Shown here piece after piece: positions 29,375-60,196 of a stretch of DNA of 64,000 nucleotides. The notes under the pieces were generated by a model. It did no database searches, had not been told where the DNA came from, and saw nothing but the letters and a program-made list of their open reading frames with translations. Position numbers and translations under genes: made by a program. The number at the start of each line of letters is the position of its first letter. Position 1 is the stretch's first letter. Source of the DNA: an uncultured Croceitalea sp. (lineage in GTDB: Bacteria; Bacteroidota; Bacteroidia; Flavobacteriales; Flavobacteriaceae); contig CANLXH010000001.1 of NCBI GenBank assembly GCA_947495075.1, positions 248,001 through 312,000 of the forward strand, written 5' to 3'.

Positions 29375-29448
29375 TGACCTCGGCAGGATTCAAACCTGCA
29401 ACCTTCTGAGCCGTAATCAGATGCGCTATTCAGTTGCGCCACGAGGCC
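29375..29448 (-). tRNA. tRNA-Arg (anticodon ACG)
   Basis: The minus strand folds into a 74-base cloverleaf. The acceptor is GGCCTCG with CGAGGTC (one G-T pair) and discriminator A. The anticodon stem is TCTGA/TCAGA around loop TTACGGC, giving anticodon ACG, read as inosine-CG after editing. The T arm is GCAGG/CCTGC with loop TTTGAAT. CCA is not encoded. A TATATTTG promoter box lies just upstream. Confidence 0.95.
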
Positions 29449-51693: not shown

Positions 51694-52476
51694 TTGCTTC
51701 ATTATACCAAATATTTACACAAATCTTCTAATGAATGGGTAACCTTTGTACATGGAGCTGGAGGTAGTTCTACAATTTGGTACAAACAGTTAAGAGATTT
51801 TAAAAAGCACTTTAATATTCTTCTTTTGGATTTAAGGGGACACGGGAACTCCAAGCCCAATCTAAAAGATGCTTTTAGTGATAAATACACATTTGATTCT
51901 ATTACAGATGATATTGTTGAAGTAATTGATTTTGAGGGTATAAAAAAATCCCATTTTATAGGAATATCATTAGGTACCATTTTAATACGAAACCTAGCTG
52001 AAAAGTACCCTACTCGTGTAGCTAGTATGGTTATGGGAGGAGCAATTATGAAATTAAACCTACGTTCTCAGGTATTAATGCGATTGGGCGTAATTTTTAA
52101 ATCTATTGTACCTTATATATGGTTATACAAGTTTTTTGCCTTTGTGATAATGCCAAATAAGAACCATAGAGAATCTCGTTTGCTATTTGTGAGAGAAGCT
52201 AAAAAGTTATACCAAAAAGAGTTCATACGTTGGTTTAAACTCACTTCAGAGATTAATCCACTACTGCGATTCTTTAGAACAGTAGATATCGAAATTCCTA
52301 CTTTATACATAATGGGTGGTGAAGATTATCTTTTTCTTCCTACCATAGAAAAAGTGGTGAAGTCTCACCGTATGTCTCAACTTGCTGTTATTGAAAATTG
52401 TGGTCATGTTGTGAATGTTGAACAACCAGTTATTTTTAACGATAGAGTAATTCAATATTTATCTGATTTGAGATGA
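51694..52476 (+). CDS. Alpha/beta-fold hydrolase
   Basis: The 260-residue cytoplasmic protein is an alpha/beta hydrolase with HGAGGSSTIW (oxyanion loop), nucleophile Ser92 in the elbow GISLGT, acid Asp in the MGGEDYLF segment and the catalytic His in NCGHVVNVEQP. The start is TTG 51694; no ATG precedes it in frame before stops. The substrate is unknown. Its stop overlaps the next gene by four bases. Confidence 0.87.
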   Translation: MLHYTKYLHKSSNEWVTFVHGAGGSSTIWYKQLRDFKKHFNILLLDLRGHGNSKPNLKDAFSDKYTFDSITDDIVEVIDFEGIKKSHFIGISLGTILIRNLAEKYPTRVASMVMGGAIMKLNLRSQVLMRLGVIFKSIVPYIWLYKFFAFVIMPNKNHRESRLLFVREAKKLYQKEFIRWFKLTSEINPLLRFFRTVDIEIPTLYIMGGEDYLFLPTIEKVVKSHRMSQLAVIENCGHVVNVEQPVIFNDRVIQYLSDLR

Positions 52477-52985
52477 TTTCTATAAAAGGTTTATTTACGC
52501 CGATAATACTTCTTTTATCTTTTAGTATCCAATCACAAATAAAGGATTGTAATTGTTGTTCTGATAATCATAAAGCTTTTGATTTTTGGTTAGGTAGTTG
52601 GACTGTCACTAATGTAGATGGCTCAAAAGCTGGTACCAATACAATTACGAAAGATCAGGACAATTGTATTTTACAGGAAAATTGGATTAGTGCCAGTGCT
52701 GGTTATACAGGTACAAGTATTAATTTCTATAATTTGAAAACTGCACAATGGGAACAGCTCTGGATTGATAATTCTGGTAATCATTTAAAGTTAAAGGGTA
52801 ATAGAGTAGGCAATAAAATGATTCTTTCCTCTAACGAATTTAAAGGTGTTAATGGTAAACTACATGTGAACAGAATTACATGGACTATAAATGATGATGG
52901 CACAGTTAGACAATTATGGGAAGTGTTAGAAGGTGATAAAGTAGTAAGTACAGCTTTTAATGGTTTGTACTCTCCTAGGAAGTAA
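52473..52985 (+). CDS. Secreted DUF1579-like (lipocalin-like) protein
   Basis: The 170-residue protein has a signal peptide (ending SIQSQ) and then DCNCCSDNHKAFDFWLGSWTVTNVDG. The FDFWLGSWxV motif at the start of an eight-strand beta fold is typical of DUF1579-type lipocalin-like proteins. An extra Cys trio (CNCC) near the mature N-terminus is unusual. It overlaps the alpha/beta hydrolase gene by four bases and converges on a minus-strand leader-like element. Confidence 0.72.
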   Translation: MISIKGLFTPIILLLSFSIQSQIKDCNCCSDNHKAFDFWLGSWTVTNVDGSKAGTNTITKDQDNCILQENWISASAGYTGTSINFYNLKTAQWEQLWIDNSGNHLKLKGNRVGNKMILSSNEFKGVNGKLHVNRITWTINDDGTVRQLWEVLEGDKVVSTAFNGLYSPRK

Positions 52986-52993
52986 ACTATATA

Positions 52994-53178
52994 AAGACAG
53001 CTCTGAAGTTTTTGATAGCTAATTCAAATAAATCACCCTAAAAATGAGACATAAAGTTTTTTAGAAGTATGTATCAGAGCCGCCTTATATAGTTAAGTTG
53101 AGTGTAAATAAATACCATAAATAAAACACTTTAGGTAATCCTTATAAACCATTACTTAGTCCCGATATATAATTACCT
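52994..53178 (-). other. Orphan second copy of the susC leader element
   Basis: On the minus strand this region is homologous to the susC upstream region. It has a 13-bp stem with two G-U pairs: 53086-53074 AAGGCGGCTCTGA pairs with 53006-52994. Shared blocks inside the loop are GTCTCATTTT (53050-53041) and TTATTTGAATTAG. It also shares the upstream block TATCGGGACTAAGTAATGGTTTATAAGGA near 53140-53166. No susC-like gene follows; the end of the DUF1579-like gene does. It lies beyond the end of the susCD operon in the same orientation. Confidence 0.72.
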
Positions 53179-53210
53179 CTACCATATCTAGCAACCTTTT
53201 AATCTAGCTC

Positions 53211-53906
53211 TTATTTAAAATAAAAGTTTAAAATTTTAATTATGTCTTCTTCCGAATCTATTTTAAGTTTCTGTGTTTTTATAAACTTGCTTATTTCATT
53301 TGATCTTGCCCCAAAAAAATTGAGTAAGGCTTTCTTTTTTCTAGGAATTTCAACAAGATGACCTGGATTGTCAATAAGATTCATTAAAAAATAAGCATCT
53401 TCAAGTTTCACAAACTTTGCACTTTTTTCAGGTTCATAACTACTTTTTGCTGGTTTAGCAGGTAGAAATTTTATACGTTGTTTCTTATAGAGTAAAAATC
53501 TATCTGTGGTATGTTTTTTCTCAAAAAAAGTATTTCCAATTTCACCTTCAGTATTAATAAATCGATGTGTTTCATAACTACCAGAACCATCTAACAACAC
53601 AATCTTATATTGATATTTTTTGGAGAGACTTAATATTTTATTATCCTCTTTTTTAAGTTGAATAATATTGTCTACTGGGTCTAACCTAATTAAATGTGAC
53701 CCAGTAAGACCTTCAATTTTTGCAAGTTTAAACTCCTCAAATATATATTTGGAACCTTCTGCATTTGCATATTTTTTATTATTTACATCAATAAAAAATG
53801 CAAGGTCTTGCAATGTACTATTACCATTTGGCGGTTGCAGTTGCGAGTAGCTTGTTAAGGTATATAAGACCATTAAACAGAAAATTATTCTTTTTGAAGT
53901 GTACAT
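53211..53906 (-). CDS. Secreted hypothetical protein, third gene of the susCD operon
   Basis: From ATG 53906 the protein has 231 residues with a signal peptide (ending TSYSQ). I do not recognise the family. The mature part is alpha/beta with several Lys-rich strands (KYQYKIVLLDGSGS, KFVKLEDAYFLMNLIDNPG) and no lipobox, CAZyme motif or membrane helix. It follows susD by 74 bases on the same strand, so it is probably co-expressed and may assist the receptor. The annotated TTG 53963 would add 19 residues with no signal character. Confidence 0.62.
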   Translation of the reverse strand: MYTSKRIIFCLMVLYTLTSYSQLQPPNGNSTLQDLAFFIDVNNKKYANAEGSKYIFEEFKLAKIEGLTGSHLIRLDPVDNIIQLKKEDNKILSLSKKYQYKIVLLDGSGSYETHRFINTEGEIGNTFFEKKHTTDRFLLYKKQRIKFLPAKPAKSSYEPEKSAKFVKLEDAYFLMNLIDNPGHLVEIPRKKKALLNFFGARSNEISKFIKTQKLKIDSEEDIIKILNFYFK

Positions 53907-53980
53907 ATCCTTTAATTTATGAAAAAACCACCACACAATTAAAATTGAATGATGGTTTCTCAATTGATTGATGAAATTAT

Positions 53981-55396
53981 TTAAAAATTACCCGGATTTT
54001 GGGTAATATTAGGATTATTGTTAATCTCATCATCGACTATCGGGAATATTACTTTATCAGCTCCTGGAGCTGATTCAGGACCCCCACCAGGTCTCAAATT
54101 AAGATTATTACGCAGTAAATCCATTCTACGGTGTCCTTCAAAACAAAGCTCTTTTCTTCTTTCTAATGATATTGCTGCGAGATCAACAGAACCCAAGTTG
54201 GCCAATCCAGCTCTGTTACGCAGTAGGTTAATATCATTTAATGGACTATCTCCAACAGATGAGCCATTTCTTAAGTTTGCCTCCGCTCGTATCAAATACA
54301 TTTCTGTGATACGCAGCACCATTCCATCTGATGCATTATTTACGATATCAGGATACTTAGTGGTAAAAAACGTGTTATTTCCTCCAGCGTCCGAAGCAGC
54401 CTGAGATAGTTCATCAAACCTTCTATCCCCTGCTTCTGCGGCAAAAGCATCTATTAAATTTTGACTAAATGGCGCATCGCCCCTTCCACCAGGAGCAGGG
54501 TTGAAAAAGTTCACATAAACTTCATCGGAGCCTGCGGCTTCTTGAGGACCATCTGTTGGTGTATTTATGGTTACAAAAATATGTTCAGAAGAGTTGGGGT
54601 TGTCATCATAAAAGTCATAGTCGCTTGCAAGTGTATATTCTCCAGAAGAAATTACTTGGTTTGCCAGATCTGCTGCTTGTGCCCACTGCTCTCTATATAA
54701 ATAAAGCCTTGCCAACAAGGCTCTAGCTGAACCAGCTTCTGCTCTAGTTCCATTATCTTCTGGTAATGCAGCTGCGGCATCCAATAAATCTTGTTCTATA
54801 AATGTGTGGACTTCATTTACCGTGGAACGCTCCAACTGAAATTCTGAGATATCACCACCTTCAAAAAAAGCAGTAACTATAGGCACTCCTAAATTTGTAC
54901 CTGCTGAAAATTGGAAAGGCTGTGCAAACAGATTCACCAATTGAAAATAAGTCAATGCCCTTAGAAACTTAGCTTCGGCAATAAAAGTAGTTTTCATGTC
55001 TTCTGTAAGACCGGTAACATCTTCTGTGCTTACATCGGGTAAATTTTGGATGACATTATTGGCTGCAGCTATTAGCTCATAACCATCAAACCAAGTATTA
55101 TCTATAGTAACATTGGTAGCAAGCGTTTCATATTGATCAATTTCCTGTAATGAAGGAAAACTACCCACAAAGTTTACGTTATCCGACATAAATTCGGATA
55201 TTAATTGGGGGTTTCCATTTAAATCACCACTTTGATTTTTACTATAAATACCTACTACAAGACCATTAATAGTTTCTAAACTACTAAATACCGTGCTCGA
55301 TGCAACATTATCCTCTGGTACAACTTCTAACCTATCTTCACACGAAATGGTAAAGACTATTGCTAGAAATGCTATTATTGTTTTTATCGTTTTCAT
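53981..55396 (-). CDS. susD: SusD/RagB outer-membrane nutrient-binding lipoprotein
   Basis: The 471-residue lipoprotein (ISCED, Cys19) is the substrate-capping partner of SusC. It shows the SusD family pattern: EVVPEDN near the start, TPR-like helices in the middle (EAKFLRALTYFQLVNLF, ARALLARLYLYREQW) and the C-terminal RITEMYLIRAEANLRNG and ERRKELCFEGHRRMDLLR segments. Its gene starts 15 bases after susC. Substrate cannot be assigned, and no glycoside hydrolase adjoins it. Confidence 0.95.
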   Translation of the reverse strand: MKTIKTIIAFLAIVFTISCEDRLEVVPEDNVASSTVFSSLETINGLVVGIYSKNQSGDLNGNPQLISEFMSDNVNFVGSFPSLQEIDQYETLATNVTIDNTWFDGYELIAAANNVIQNLPDVSTEDVTGLTEDMKTTFIAEAKFLRALTYFQLVNLFAQPFQFSAGTNLGVPIVTAFFEGGDISEFQLERSTVNEVHTFIEQDLLDAAAALPEDNGTRAEAGSARALLARLYLYREQWAQAADLANQVISSGEYTLASDYDFYDDNPNSSEHIFVTINTPTDGPQEAAGSDEVYVNFFNPAPGGRGDAPFSQNLIDAFAAEAGDRRFDELSQAASDAGGNNTFFTTKYPDIVNNASDGMVLRITEMYLIRAEANLRNGSSVGDSPLNDINLLRNRAGLANLGSVDLAAISLERRKELCFEGHRRMDLLRNNLNLRPGGGPESAPGADKVIFPIVDDEINNNPNITQNPGNF

Positions 55397-55411
55397 TTCT
55401 ATTTTTTTTAG

Positions 55412-58400
55412 TTAAAATTGTATTCTTGCTCCGAATGAGTAAGATTTTGCCTGTGGTGCTGTAAAGAAAGACTCTCCTTGAAATAAAGGATCAATGTCAT
55501 CGGTTACCTCGGGATCAATACCATCGAGTTCATCACCTTTTATCGTAAATAAGTTGGTGGCCGTAGCATATAATCTAATTCCGCTAAAAACCCCACCTAA
55601 TCTATCCAAAGTGGATTGTGGTAAACTGTATCCCAAAGTAATGTTCTTTAGCCTTAAATAAGACCCGTCTAACTGCTGTTGATCTGACCTCTGGTTGAAC
55701 AGATTAAAAGTTGAGCTAGTAGGACTAGGTAAGAATGCATTATCACCGGGCTGCCTCCAATAGTTTAAGTTTTGTCTTCTAATATTTACAATACCACCAA
55801 TAGCATCATTTCCATCTGCGAATCGTAATCCGTCAATAACAATATCATTTCCGTAGGAATAATTCATCAAGAATGAAAGGTCAAAGTTCTTATAGGTTAT
55901 GGTATTGGTAATACCACCAGAAAAGTCGGGTAATGGACTACCGGTTACGACCCGATCTCCCGAGCCAGGGTTGTTGGTAATGTTTCCATTAACATCCAAC
56001 CACTCTGCATCTCCTGTTTGTGAGTTTACACCCACGTAACGTATCAAAAAGAAATTATTTAATGATTCGCCTTCAATAGCTCTTTGAATTGCACCGTCTA
56101 TGATTCTTCTTCCTTGGGCATCTGTTGTGGCATCCTCATTTAATCTAAGAACAGTATTATCAATAGTGGTTAAATTGAAACTTGTACGCCATTGAAAATT
56201 CTCGCTTTGCACATTTACCGTATTTAGTTCAAATTCCCACCCTGTATTTTCCATCTCACCTACATTTCTGCTTATACTAACAAATCCGGTTAGTGGTGGT
56301 AGTACTTGATTTAAAAGTAAATCTCTTGTAGTCTTTTTAAAATAAGAAGCATTAAAAGTAATTCTACCATTCAAGAAAGTAGATTTTAAACCAACGTCCA
56401 AGGTCTCACTTTCCTCCCATTTAAGGTCTGAATTTTCTGGTTGATTGGGAATCACGCCAGATTCTGCATTATTATCGGCAATTGCACCTGCATTAAATAG
56501 CCCTAGAGAAGGAAAAGTACCTAAACGATCATTACCAACGGTACCTATACTAGCTCTAAGAGATAAGAAGTCAAAAAAGTTTAAATCTTTTATAAAATCC
56601 TCTTCGGATAAGGTCCATCCGGCAGCGGCAGACCAGAAATATCCAAATCGGTTATTGGCACCAAACCTTGAAGACCCATCCCTTCTAATAGACCCTTCAA
56701 CAATATACTTACCCTTATAATCGTAAGTAGCTCTTGAAAATAACCCGAACAGTCTAGTTGGAAAACGATCGCCATTCAATACGGTTGGAGTAGACCCAGA
56801 ACCTAAGTTTCTAAGCCCATCAGTTAAAAAACCTGTCGAAGATACGTTTAAGCGCGTTCTTAGCGTTTCTTCATAGTTTAAACCAAGTAAGAGGTTCAAA
56901 TTATGATCTTCACCTATACTAGGACTATAATTTAAGGTTTGATTGGTCAACCATCTTTCTTCTCTAACACTAACTACTTGAGCTAGACCACCTGGAGTAT
57001 TGAATGCGGCCTCTCGGGTTGTCTCTTCAGTACTCAACCAATCTACCCCAAACTCAGAACGCCAAGTAACTCCTTCAAAAGGAGTAACTTCTGTAAAAGC
57101 ATTACCAATGACTCTGAAAGTTTTTAATTCCCTTGTGTCTAAGGCTACTCTAGCAAAAATATTTGGAATAAAAGACCCTGATTGTAGAAAATTACCCTCA
57201 TCATCAAATGCTCTAACAACAGGACTTTGAAGAAATGCAGTAGTAAAAGGGGCATCAATTTCGTTTTCTACAAAAACCCTTGCCAAGCGATTATTGGTAA
57301 TCCCTAAATTCATTCCAGCTTTGAGCCAACTGTTAACATCTGTATCAATGTTGATTCTAGCTCCTGCGCGTTGTTGATCATTTCCTATTATAAAGCCTTC
57401 AGTATTTTGATAATCCAATCCAAAGAAAAAGGAAGTTTTTTCGCTACCTCCTCTTACACCAAGGTTATAGTTTTGTGATATACCAGTTCTCTGAACACCG
57501 CCGAGCCAATCTGTTCCTCCAGAGCCTATAGCTCCCAATCCAAGATCTTCTGGTGAAGTAGGAGTGCCATTTTGTAAAGTAGCTACTTCAGATTTGAACT
57601 GGCGAAATTCATCAGCAGTTAATATATCTGGTACGTCTGTAGATTCTGAATATTGTGTGTTTACATCTAATGTAACTGTAGTTGCTGAGTTTCTTCTACC
57701 CTTTTTAGTGGTAATGAGAATAACTCCATTGGCTCCACGAGAACCATAAATAGAAGTTGCACCAGCATCTTTTAACACTGTTAATGATGCAATATCATTT
57801 GGGTTAACATAGGATAAAGGATTAATACCCGTATTTCCACCTCTATTTAAGGTATTTTGACTATCAGTAATAGGTACACCATCAATAACAATCAAAGGTT
57901 GGCTACCAGAGTTAATGGAGTTTACGCCTCTGACCCTAATAACGGCAGCTGATCCTAAAACCCCGGATGCGTTTACAATCTGTGTACCTGCACTTTGTCC
58001 TTGTAATAATTGATCGGCAGAAACCACTTGTAAGTTTTCAATGGCTTCTTCTTTAACAATTCCAACGTTTTGAATAATCTTTCGTTCTTCTTGGTTACCG
58101 TAACCAATAACTACTACTTCTTCCAGTGCTTGGGTATCTTGATCCATTTGTACATTAATAGTGTTGGATGCACCAACTGTACGTTCAACCGTTTTTTGTC
58201 CTATGTAAGAGAAAACCAATACATCTCCCTCATTTGCTTGGATTATATAATTTCCATCAAAATCAGATTGTGTTCCTGTAATGGTACCTTTTACCAAAAT
58301 GTTTACTCCGGGCAACGGTAAGCCCTCAAAATCGGTCACTACTCCCGATACGTTCTTTTGCTGTGCGAATGCGGAGAAAATGCCCATTAAAAAGAGCATA

Positions 58401-58426
58401 TACAACCATTTAGTCCTGTTTTTCAT
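55412..58426 (-). CDS. susC: SusC/RagA TonB-dependent outer-membrane transporter
   Basis: The 1004-residue TonB-dependent transporter has a signal peptide (FAQ, about 22). A CarboxypepD_reg-like N-terminal domain follows (about 25-100, GVVTDFEGLPLPGVNILVKGT), then a plug domain with IRVRGVNSINSGSQPLIVIDGVP and ASIYGSRGANGVILITTKKG, and a long barrel ending in SFGARIQF. It forms a gated complex with SusD that imports a glycan, peptide or other ligand using TonB energy. It heads the operon with SusD and the 231-residue protein. Upstream lies a conserved structured leader and a membrane-bound AraC regulator. Confidence 0.97.
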   Translation of the reverse strand: MKNRTKWLYMLFLMGIFSAFAQQKNVSGVVTDFEGLPLPGVNILVKGTITGTQSDFDGNYIIQANEGDVLVFSYIGQKTVERTVGASNTINVQMDQDTQALEEVVVIGYGNQEERKIIQNVGIVKEEAIENLQVVSADQLLQGQSAGTQIVNASGVLGSAAVIRVRGVNSINSGSQPLIVIDGVPITDSQNTLNRGGNTGINPLSYVNPNDIASLTVLKDAGATSIYGSRGANGVILITTKKGRRNSATTVTLDVNTQYSESTDVPDILTADEFRQFKSEVATLQNGTPTSPEDLGLGAIGSGGTDWLGGVQRTGISQNYNLGVRGGSEKTSFFFGLDYQNTEGFIIGNDQQRAGARINIDTDVNSWLKAGMNLGITNNRLARVFVENEIDAPFTTAFLQSPVVRAFDDEGNFLQSGSFIPNIFARVALDTRELKTFRVIGNAFTEVTPFEGVTWRSEFGVDWLSTEETTREAAFNTPGGLAQVVSVREERWLTNQTLNYSPSIGEDHNLNLLLGLNYEETLRTRLNVSSTGFLTDGLRNLGSGSTPTVLNGDRFPTRLFGLFSRATYDYKGKYIVEGSIRRDGSSRFGANNRFGYFWSAAAGWTLSEEDFIKDLNFFDFLSLRASIGTVGNDRLGTFPSLGLFNAGAIADNNAESGVIPNQPENSDLKWEESETLDVGLKSTFLNGRITFNASYFKKTTRDLLLNQVLPPLTGFVSISRNVGEMENTGWEFELNTVNVQSENFQWRTSFNLTTIDNTVLRLNEDATTDAQGRRIIDGAIQRAIEGESLNNFFLIRYVGVNSQTGDAEWLDVNGNITNNPGSGDRVVTGSPLPDFSGGITNTITYKNFDLSFLMNYSYGNDIVIDGLRFADGNDAIGGIVNIRRQNLNYWRQPGDNAFLPSPTSSTFNLFNQRSDQQQLDGSYLRLKNITLGYSLPQSTLDRLGGVFSGIRLYATATNLFTIKGDELDGIDPEVTDDIDPLFQGESFFTAPQAKSYSFGARIQF

Positions 58427-58449
58427 ACTTAACTATTGTTTTGAGTTAG

Positions 58450-58566
58450 AATGTAAATGCAGCCCTGACGTATTGATGACTAATTCAAATAATTACTCTT
58501 GTAGAAAATGAGACCAAAGTCTAGTCTTTTTCGTGTAAGTGCAAATGTCTCAGGGCTGCCTACATT
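58450..58566 (-). promoter_or_regulatory. Structured leader RNA upstream of susC
   Basis: The minus strand folds with GCAGCCCTGA (58559-58550) pairing perfectly with TCAGGGCTGC (58468-58459), and a lower stem ATGTA/TACAT after a bulge. The loop carries blocks shared with the copy at 52994-53086: GTCTCATTTT and TTATTTGAATTAG. One stem pair is T-A in the other copy and C-G here, so both sides changed together. It lies 24 bases from the susC ATG. Confidence 0.72.
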
Positions 58567-58615
58567 TTTAAGTTATTAACTCCAAATTAACAGTGCTAGC
58601 AGTGGTTTTCAGGAA

Positions 58616-58651
58616 AGTCCTATAAACATTTACTTATCCGATAAATGTTTA
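58616..58651 (-). promoter_or_regulatory. Conserved upstream block of the susC promoter
   Basis: AAACATTTA (58625-58633) and TAAATGTTT (58642-58650) are a perfect 9-bp inverted repeat around CTTATCCG-type sequence, abutting the AraC-type gene stop. The block TATCGG-ATAAGTAAATGTTTATAGGA is shared with the orphan copy and is a candidate operator for the neighbouring AraC-type regulator. It may also end that gene's transcript. Confidence 0.55.
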
Positions 58652-60196
58652 CTATTGATTTACTTGTAGTTGTGGCGTTCTTCTTTGAAATTGACTTGGA
58701 GTTAATTGTGTATCCTTTTTAAAAGCTTTGTTAAAAGTTACCTTATTATTATAGCCAACTTCATATGCTACATCTATAATGTTAAGATTTCTTTGTTGAT
58801 CATTGGTTAATATTCTTTTAGCTTCTTCAATTCTATATTTATTTACCAATTCATGAAAGCTAACTTTAAAGTGTTCATTAATAACCTGCGAAGCATTATG
58901 CCTAGAAGTATTTAATCTATGTGCAATCATTTCTAAACTGATGTCATTTTCTTTGTAAATCATATCATTCTTGAAAAGATGCTCTAAGTGATTTTTAAGC
59001 TCAAGTGATAGACTAGGTGTAAGTCCAGATTTTTCATATTTTGGGAATAAGCTGTTGCGATTGGTATACGTAATAACACCGTTAAAAACGTTTGGTTGGA
59101 TATTTGCAGAATAGCCAATGTAAAGGACCATTAAGGCCATACTCCCCAGCTGAAAATGATAGAAAAACCCAGAGGATACGGAATTACTAATCAATATTCC
59201 ATAAATAGCGTAAGCAAAAATGTATAGAAAATGTATATAGTATAGATTTCTTTGCCACAATCTATTAGGTTTTACAATGCCATTTCTTTTAATACTTTCT
59301 ATGTATAATTTTCGGATGAAGTATCCATATATAGCTAATGAAGCTAGTTTTAATAGAACGATTACTATAAGGAATTCTGAATCAGAAGCATTAAGTCCAT
59401 TCTTAACCCTACTTAACATTAAATCTAATTTCTCATTTTTAGAAAGGGAATATATAGGAACAATATAAATTAAAAATAATAGCGTAGGTATTAAATGTAG
59501 TAAATCGTTATACTTAAAAGAATGTTTATGAACTACTTTTTTAAAGTATAGAAAAAGTAAGGGGCCATACAAAAAAGAGAAACAAGTAGACATTAAATAG
59601 GAATGAGGATATTGGTATTGATAGTTAGATATAACCAAACTTATATGGAAAATAAAGAAGGAGTGAATAAAAATAAAACCACTTATTAATAATCTAGCAG
59701 ATGGTCTTATTCTCTTGTTGAAATTTAGCATTAATACTGTGTAAAAACCTACGAATGCTATAAAAAAGTAAAAGAAAGACCAAAAATTTAATCTGGGATT
59801 GTATTTTTTAATTATGATGTTAAATTCTTCCGAACTTCGTATTTTATCAAAACCTTCATGATTTAGAAAGTCTGTATTAAAATCTGCTAGGAGGTATGAT
59901 TCTAAATAATCTGTAGATTTCACTGTATTGCCAAGACCAGCCTCGCTAAGAGCTAACTTCTTTAGAAATTTTATTTTGTTTACTCCTTTTCGATTTAAAC
60001 CCTTTTCATATAAAGTGATTGCTTCTTCAAAGCGTTGAATATTATAATAATAATCTGCCCAGCGAATAGAGTCCTGCGAATAAGCCAAGTTAATTTTATT
60101 CTTTTCTAATATTGTATTCTCTGGTGTGATTGCACCGAATACAATTTTTGTGGCTAGCAGGAACAAGAGAAATGTGTTTGCTTTCAATGGTCCCAT
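58652..60196 (-). CDS. Membrane-bound AraC-family regulator (TPR-like, 7TM, HTH)
   Basis: The 514-residue protein has a signal-like segment and about 130 extracytoplasmic residues with a TPR-like repeat (YNIQRFEEAITLYEKGL). Seven or so hydrophobic helices lie between about 137 and 365. The last 110 residues are an AraC-type DNA-binding domain (SLEMIAHRLNTSRHNASQVINEHF and the second helix-turn-helix, IIDVAYEVGYNNKVTFNKAFKK). It is directly upstream of susCD on the same strand and is its probable regulator; the 225-base gap between them holds the leader and operator block. It is a different class from the LuxR-type regulator of the glucan operon. Confidence 0.87.
   Translation of the reverse strand: MGPLKANTFLLFLLATKIVFGAITPENTILEKNKINLAYSQDSIRWADYYYNIQRFEEAITLYEKGLNRKGVNKIKFLKKLALSEAGLGNTVKSTDYLESYLLADFNTDFLNHEGFDKIRSSEEFNIIIKKYNPRLNFWSFFYFFIAFVGFYTVLMLNFNKRIRPSARLLISGFIFIHSFFIFHISLVISNYQYQYPHSYLMSTCFSFLYGPLLFLYFKKVVHKHSFKYNDLLHLIPTLLFLIYIVPIYSLSKNEKLDLMLSRVKNGLNASDSEFLIVIVLLKLASLAIYGYFIRKLYIESIKRNGIVKPNRLWQRNLYYIHFLYIFAYAIYGILISNSVSSGFFYHFQLGSMALMVLYIGYSANIQPNVFNGVITYTNRNSLFPKYEKSGLTPSLSLELKNHLEHLFKNDMIYKENDISLEMIAHRLNTSRHNASQVINEHFKVSFHELVNKYRIEEAKRILTNDQQRNLNIIDVAYEVGYNNKVTFNKAFKKDTQLTPSQFQRRTPQLQVNQ

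Follow-up and report, generated by a model that had tools for sequence, protein, structure and literature searches.

Why should a susCD operon be bracketed by two diverged copies of one structured element, when only one of the copies has a receptor gene after it? The question arises in the window, the 64,000-nucleotide stretch of DNA that was analysed (C1:248001-312000 of a 3.7 Mb genome in 15 contigs). The gene order is purN, a DUF4197 gene, a regulator with an AraC-type domain, element B, susC, susD, a gene for a 250-aa protein and element A. Beyond element A lie convergent genes for a 170-aa protein and a hydrolase, then pyrF and prfA; purN, pyrF and prfA are names that we presume from the protein sequences. 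Element B stops 22 nt short of the ATG of the window susC, and A is placed behind the operon, facing the convergent 170-aa gene. The features are as follows.

52473..52985, plus strand: convergent 170-aa gene, which bounds A on its distal side in many relatives
about 52985..53092, minus strand: element A, a structured RNA of the CT type (GAATTAGCTA), whose antisense blocks fit the class-1 susC elsewhere in the genome
53093..53178, minus strand: block upstream of A, TCGG..TAAGTAA..TTTATA, a probable promoter or activator region
53211..53963, minus strand: 250-aa gene, third gene of the operon, without a Pfam match
53981..55396, minus strand: susD
55412..58426, minus strand: susC, with little complementarity to A or B at its own start
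about 58449..58568, minus strand: element B, a structured RNA of the TC type (GAATTAGTCA), susC leader, whose antisense blocks fit the class-2 susC elsewhere in the genome
58569..58651, minus strand: block upstream of B, TATCGG..TAAGTAA..TTTATAGGA, a probable promoter or activator region
58652..60196, minus strand: regulator with a C-terminal AraC-type DNA-binding domain

We consider it likely that A and B are antisense RNAs that block the translation of other SusC transporters, one of them doubling as a susC leader.

Structure and covariation of the elements

The original prediction held that two diverged copies of a structured element lie on the minus strand with a compensatory change in the stem. 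Both copies are present with their shared blocks, and they are identical at 82 of 121 aligned columns. The stem change also holds, a T-A pair being replaced by C-G and a G-U pair by A-U, and the outer stem is longer than had been said, with 17 pairs in a model from 16 aligned copies. The minus strands of the two copies fold with z values of -4.60 and -4.62 and the plus strands with -3.28 and -3.67; none of 200 shuffles is as stable as the native sequence in any of the four folds. The strand had been argued from G-U pairs. G-U/U-G pairs are indeed frequent on the minus strand (27 of 92 rows at one pair, for example), and the opposite strand would therefore have A-C mismatches. Blocks, stem and folding together bear out a minus-strand structured RNA.

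Searched for exactly, the two-block pattern is present at 2 places in the own genome and in 15 of 299 family genomes, the own included, and the reversed control in 0. Of its 20 places in the family genomes, 16 can be aligned with the stem and 4 are without it. The upstream block TATCGG..TAAGTAA..TTTATAGGA is visible by eye in 15 of the 16 aligned copies, both window copies included. Ten of the 17 stem pairs show double-sided change among these 16 copies, and 88.5% of the stem cells are paired in their MAFFT alignment, compared with 35-50% when the stem is slid. The covariance model built from the 16 stem-bearing copies, R1, picks out 33 of the 397 genomes of the family as carriers of the element, with further matches near susC genes, which is what a covariance-model search had been proposed to look for; two copies lie 5-8 kb apart in 14 of the 33 positive genomes. 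Covariation extends to more copies as well. All 27 modelled pairs are doubly changed in 95 matches from named relatives, 87.3% being paired versus 39-52% in the control, in an alignment made by fitting to the model. Both window copies could also form a third inner hairpin (TAATT/AATTA); judged by eye it is broken in several relatives, and we do not claim it.

A second subfamily has a different stem sequence, kept by double changes of its own, and was modelled as R2. Two of 217 genomes of the class are matched by R2, the own genome and one genome of the same family, the latter partially. In many genomes R2 gives partial matches to susC starts, too, on their minus strand, and its tally of 228 of 397 genomes is a mixture of RNAs and targets rather than a count of RNA genes. 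A full-length R2 match (70.6 bits) at G086:C12:191996-192115 (L183) overlaps a target-like motif with a frame of just 12 aa; this site is probably one more RNA gene, outside the usual locus. At gathering score, Rfam gave nothing but tRNAs in the window and in six subfamily-2 loci, and weaker matches are far below the cut-offs. The tRNA gene at window positions 29375-29448 (minus strand) is the sole such match of the window.

Complementarity to other susC starts

The four pattern places without a stem (L005, L013, L014, L019) are gene starts on the opposite strand, three of them of susC genes, and this leads to an antisense reading that goes beyond the original prediction. Taken with their flank, the two conserved loop blocks, GTCTCATTTT and TTATTTGAATTAG, are the reverse complement of sequence at the 5' UTR and the start codon in other susC genes. 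A small RNA had been one of the options offered, and this complementarity favors it. The start at L005, about 1501-1537 (G164:C18:85183-85219), is that of a non-susC gene (MRLVALALCWCSASLFAQ..) with a bipartite complement and is possibly a further target or a chance occurrence.

The own genome has 12 full-length SusC genes, of which 2 start with the reverse complement of the blocks: class 1 (..TTAGCTAATTCAAATAATTTAACAAATGAGA..) at C1:91703-94894 and class 2 (..TTGACTAATTCAAAATTCAAATAAATGAGA..) at C2:1313151-1316150. Genome-wide, the pattern CTAATTCAAA..ATGAGA occurs at 4 places in the own genome, which are the two elements and these two susC starts; the reversed control occurs at 1. Pairing energies are -33.5 (class 1) and -26.1 (class 2) kcal/mol for A, and -37.4 (class 2) and -25.5 (class 1) kcal/mol for B, so that among the 12 full SusC starts class 1 is the best for A and class 2 the best for B. 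The window's own susC reaches -22.0 and -24.1 kcal/mol with the elements, and its complementary runs of at most 7 are like those of several non-targets. Among 540 pooled gene starts, which include many foreign susC starts, class 1 of the own genome comes 50th for A and class 2 of the own genome 18th for B.

The class-1 susC, which may be a housekeeping importer, is divergent beside the gene for ribosomal protein S7 (L424, 7201-10467 and 11304-11780) and is followed by a SusD-like_2 gene. The class-2 operon is paralogous to that of the window (SusC 54%, SusD 54% and third gene 32% identical), and B, the leader of the window operon, therefore appears from the sequences to be aimed at that operon's paralogue. 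Antisense in the second subfamily extends into the coding sequence of a susC in the genome that carries the RNA, the best value being -59.4. There, CCATTAAGTTTTG RNAs face susC genes with CAAAACTTAATGG, and CACTAAACTTTG RNAs face CAAAGTTTAGTG.

Complementarity was followed across genomes in a collection of 71 elements and 74 target starts, in which 68 elements come with a target start from their own genome and 3 with none in the collection. The element search gave 69 matches, of which 51 (E up to 0.011) were kept, the others being mirror-strand or weaker; genomes found with R2 contributed one element each, although some have more. Targets L183 (12-aa frame) and L300 (no frame) were dropped, as were L211, L212 and L214, which are not SusC-like; L281, not SusC-like, was retained among the 74. 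The mean energy of own pairs is -41.6 versus -35.5 (sd 0.72) with permuted genome labels, and 0 of 5000 permutations are as low (68 of 71 elements). Against unrelated gene starts the mean z is -5.0, with values below -2 in 65 of 68, a measure made partly circular by the use of a motif to collect the targets.

The type of an element is given by the two bases adjoining the GAATTAG block, and these bases lie outside the patterns used for target collection. Type and target class agree in 31 of 31 genomes with one main type and one class (12 CT/AG, 19 TC/GA). An AG target is present in the same genome for 28 of 28 CT-type elements, and for the 37 TC-type elements a GA or GG target was collected in 29 cases and AG alone in 8; these counts, like the others across relatives, are not independent, because relatives share history, and the rarer types CC, CA and TA (one each with a collected target) stand outside the type match. 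A hidden class-2 susC was predicted in the 8 genomes with a TC-type RNA and no GA target in the collection. The prediction was not borne out, a search of these genomes finding no close class-2 orthologue. Co-change thus keeps RNA and target complementary, as in a trans-acting antisense sRNA.

The target site is wider than the RNA. If the elements are included in the count, 162 of the 397 genomes contain the target pattern, and 37 contain control matches. G176, of the window's genus, has a class-1 target site at G176:C12:304499-304524 (L210) and no element by R1 or R2. In such genomes either other RNAs use the site, or the leader serves a function of its own, of which the RNA takes advantage. 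Conservation of the site in genomes without a detected element, where something else may use it, would also fit a decoy or sponge, an RNA that pairs with the conserved susC 5' UTR or mimics its partner, frees it and raises expression. We regard such a raising effect as quite improbable, given that the pairing spans the start codon, which as a rule blocks initiation, and that no other partner was found.

Architecture of the locus in relatives

Eighty named loci (the best 80 of 103, to which all counts out of 80 refer) were anchored on the regulator protein and not chosen by the RNA. With R1 and R2, an element lies less than 1 kb after the regulator in 62/80 and more than 2.5 kb downstream of it in 37/80; both places are occupied in 30 and neither in 11, one of these element-free loci covering only 2 bases of tail. 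A further 4/80 have two copies in tandem before susC. Two-copy loci of this set contain one CT and one TC element in 34/34, in either order. The 14 two-copy R1 genomes, which overlap the named set, include 13 with one element of each type and G082 with two TC copies; weaker matches in G392 are also two TC copies.

That the elements form a family of leaders, another option of the original prediction, is in part correct. Elements do lie near susC, and B is a susC leader, as had been proposed. The description is too narrow, since no susC was found within 6.7-8 kb downstream at 14/80 loci that keep an element. Regulator and RNA remain at these 14 loci, which are mostly from Flagellimonas or Allomuricauda. 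The same loci bear on the possibility that the elements are cis-acting, attenuator- or riboswitch-like leaders of the downstream susC, A being a spare and the complementarity incidental or inherited. The 22 nt between B and susC and the regular position of the second-subfamily element before susC would suit a leader of this kind. A leader of this kind should always be followed by susC. At the 14 loci none was found, A itself lies behind the operon, and RNA and foreign target co-change; we think such a leader unlikely. Nor is the distal copy the relic of a second susCD unit, the remaining option, for it stands in the same place in many genera and has its own conserved upstream block and a distinct, conserved specificity.

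The SusC at the locus is between about 90% and about 25% identical to that of the window (by best segments), and the flanking genes are constant. What lies between the regulator and the convergent genes, the susCD operon, differs among species (window 53211-58426, L082-L114, L341-L420). The locus gives the impression of a site where importer operons are exchanged. Direct repeats allowing susCD cassettes to swap between the AraC regulator and the 170-aa gene would explain such variation between constant flanks and the existence of single-copy loci without susCD. As the whole function of the elements this is very improbable: covariation in the stem and co-change with the target call for a function as RNA, the window copies are diverged and of different types, and copies stand in tandem before susC in the 4 loci noted above. 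Recombination need not compete with the antisense function that we prefer and could be a by-product.

The sequence GTAA N10-18 GTAA lies upstream of 43/107 motif places at regulator loci, compared with 2/107 shuffled and 1/107 downstream, and is consistent with a shared activator site.

A model and its relation to known systems

The model builds on structure, covariation, complementarity, co-change of RNA and target, and two types per locus, all read directly from the sequences. A and B would be structured RNAs of about 105-120 nt from the minus strand, in which a long closing stem displays the two antisense blocks. Over a stretch of about 30 nt the blocks would pair with the mRNA of another susC, one at the 5' UTR and the other at the start codon, and thereby prevent its translation. 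A is predicted to act on the class-1 susC and B on the class-2 susC. The adjacent AraC-type protein would drive both RNAs. We infer transcription, release of the RNAs, their 3' ends, the AraC-type drive, repression, and cross-silencing with the own susC spared. Given transcription, this drive and repression, inducing the window susCD would turn two other SusC transporters down and spare its own SusC. No intrinsic terminator-like site was found near A or B, so B may be released from the susC mRNA by cleavage or may function while still joined to it. A sigma-70 promoter scan, which does not cover Bacteroidota promoters, gave no more than chance. A search for a link of the CRISPR type turned up nothing relevant among the matches listed.

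A broader version, on which our judgement is evenly balanced, is an importer switch in one locus. The regulator would induce susCD together with a pair of sibling antisense RNAs, each with a fixed specificity different from the other's and one serving as the leader of the operon, which silence two other conserved SusC transporters; the operon would be exchangeable between species, and the RNAs would co-evolve with their targets.

Flavobacteriaceae are major degraders of marine organic matter. They can carry many SusC-type importers (12 full-length here), and the ranking among these importers is what is at stake. If the antisense reading is true, switching on one importer may turn others down. 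The elements offer a concrete model of cross-control at the RNA level, with RNA and target sequences from 50 genomes and natural compensatory changes. No description of such RNAs in Flavobacteriaceae was found in the open-licence PMC papers searched.

Several known RNAs resemble the elements in part. DonS-type RNAs of Bacteroides PULs exert antisense control on polysaccharide-uptake operons and are cis-encoded opposite their target; in contrast, A and B are not encoded opposite their targets, which lie elsewhere in the genome, on C1 and C2. OmrA and OmrB of enterobacteria are, like A and B, a sibling pair of RNAs aimed at outer-membrane protein mRNAs. They are not known to have sequence kinship to A and B or to be leaders of a receptor operon. 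In the same bacterial family, the Rfp RNAs of Flavobacterium psychrophilum are likewise structured small RNAs, and Rfp18 has metalloprotease and adhesin targets (PMC9723704). Unlike for A and B, no susC-directed one is named in the available part of that report (PMC9723704).

The closest comparison is with FopS of Bacteroides thetaiotaomicron, for which a translational block by pairing over the 5' UTR and start codon has been found experimentally (PMC11697453). The elements share with it a putative antisense to the start codon and 5' UTR of susC, here by sequence only. To go by the available part of the FopS report, structure, promoters and copy number differ (PMC11697453): here one or two copies are tied to one locus with two fixed specificities, one copy is a susC leader, the seeds lie inside a long closing stem, no terminator-like site was found, and the elements were met in one family only in the searches done. 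The FopS family is further marked by binding of the RRM protein RbpB and by an Rfam model that its authors deposited. Rfam gave no match for the elements in the window or in the six subfamily-2 loci, and the Rfam copy used may not include that model. By analogy, we propose that the elements work like FopS, which is no claim that they belong to the FopS family. Together with FopS, they suggest that antisense control at the start codon of susC arose more than once in the Bacteroidota.
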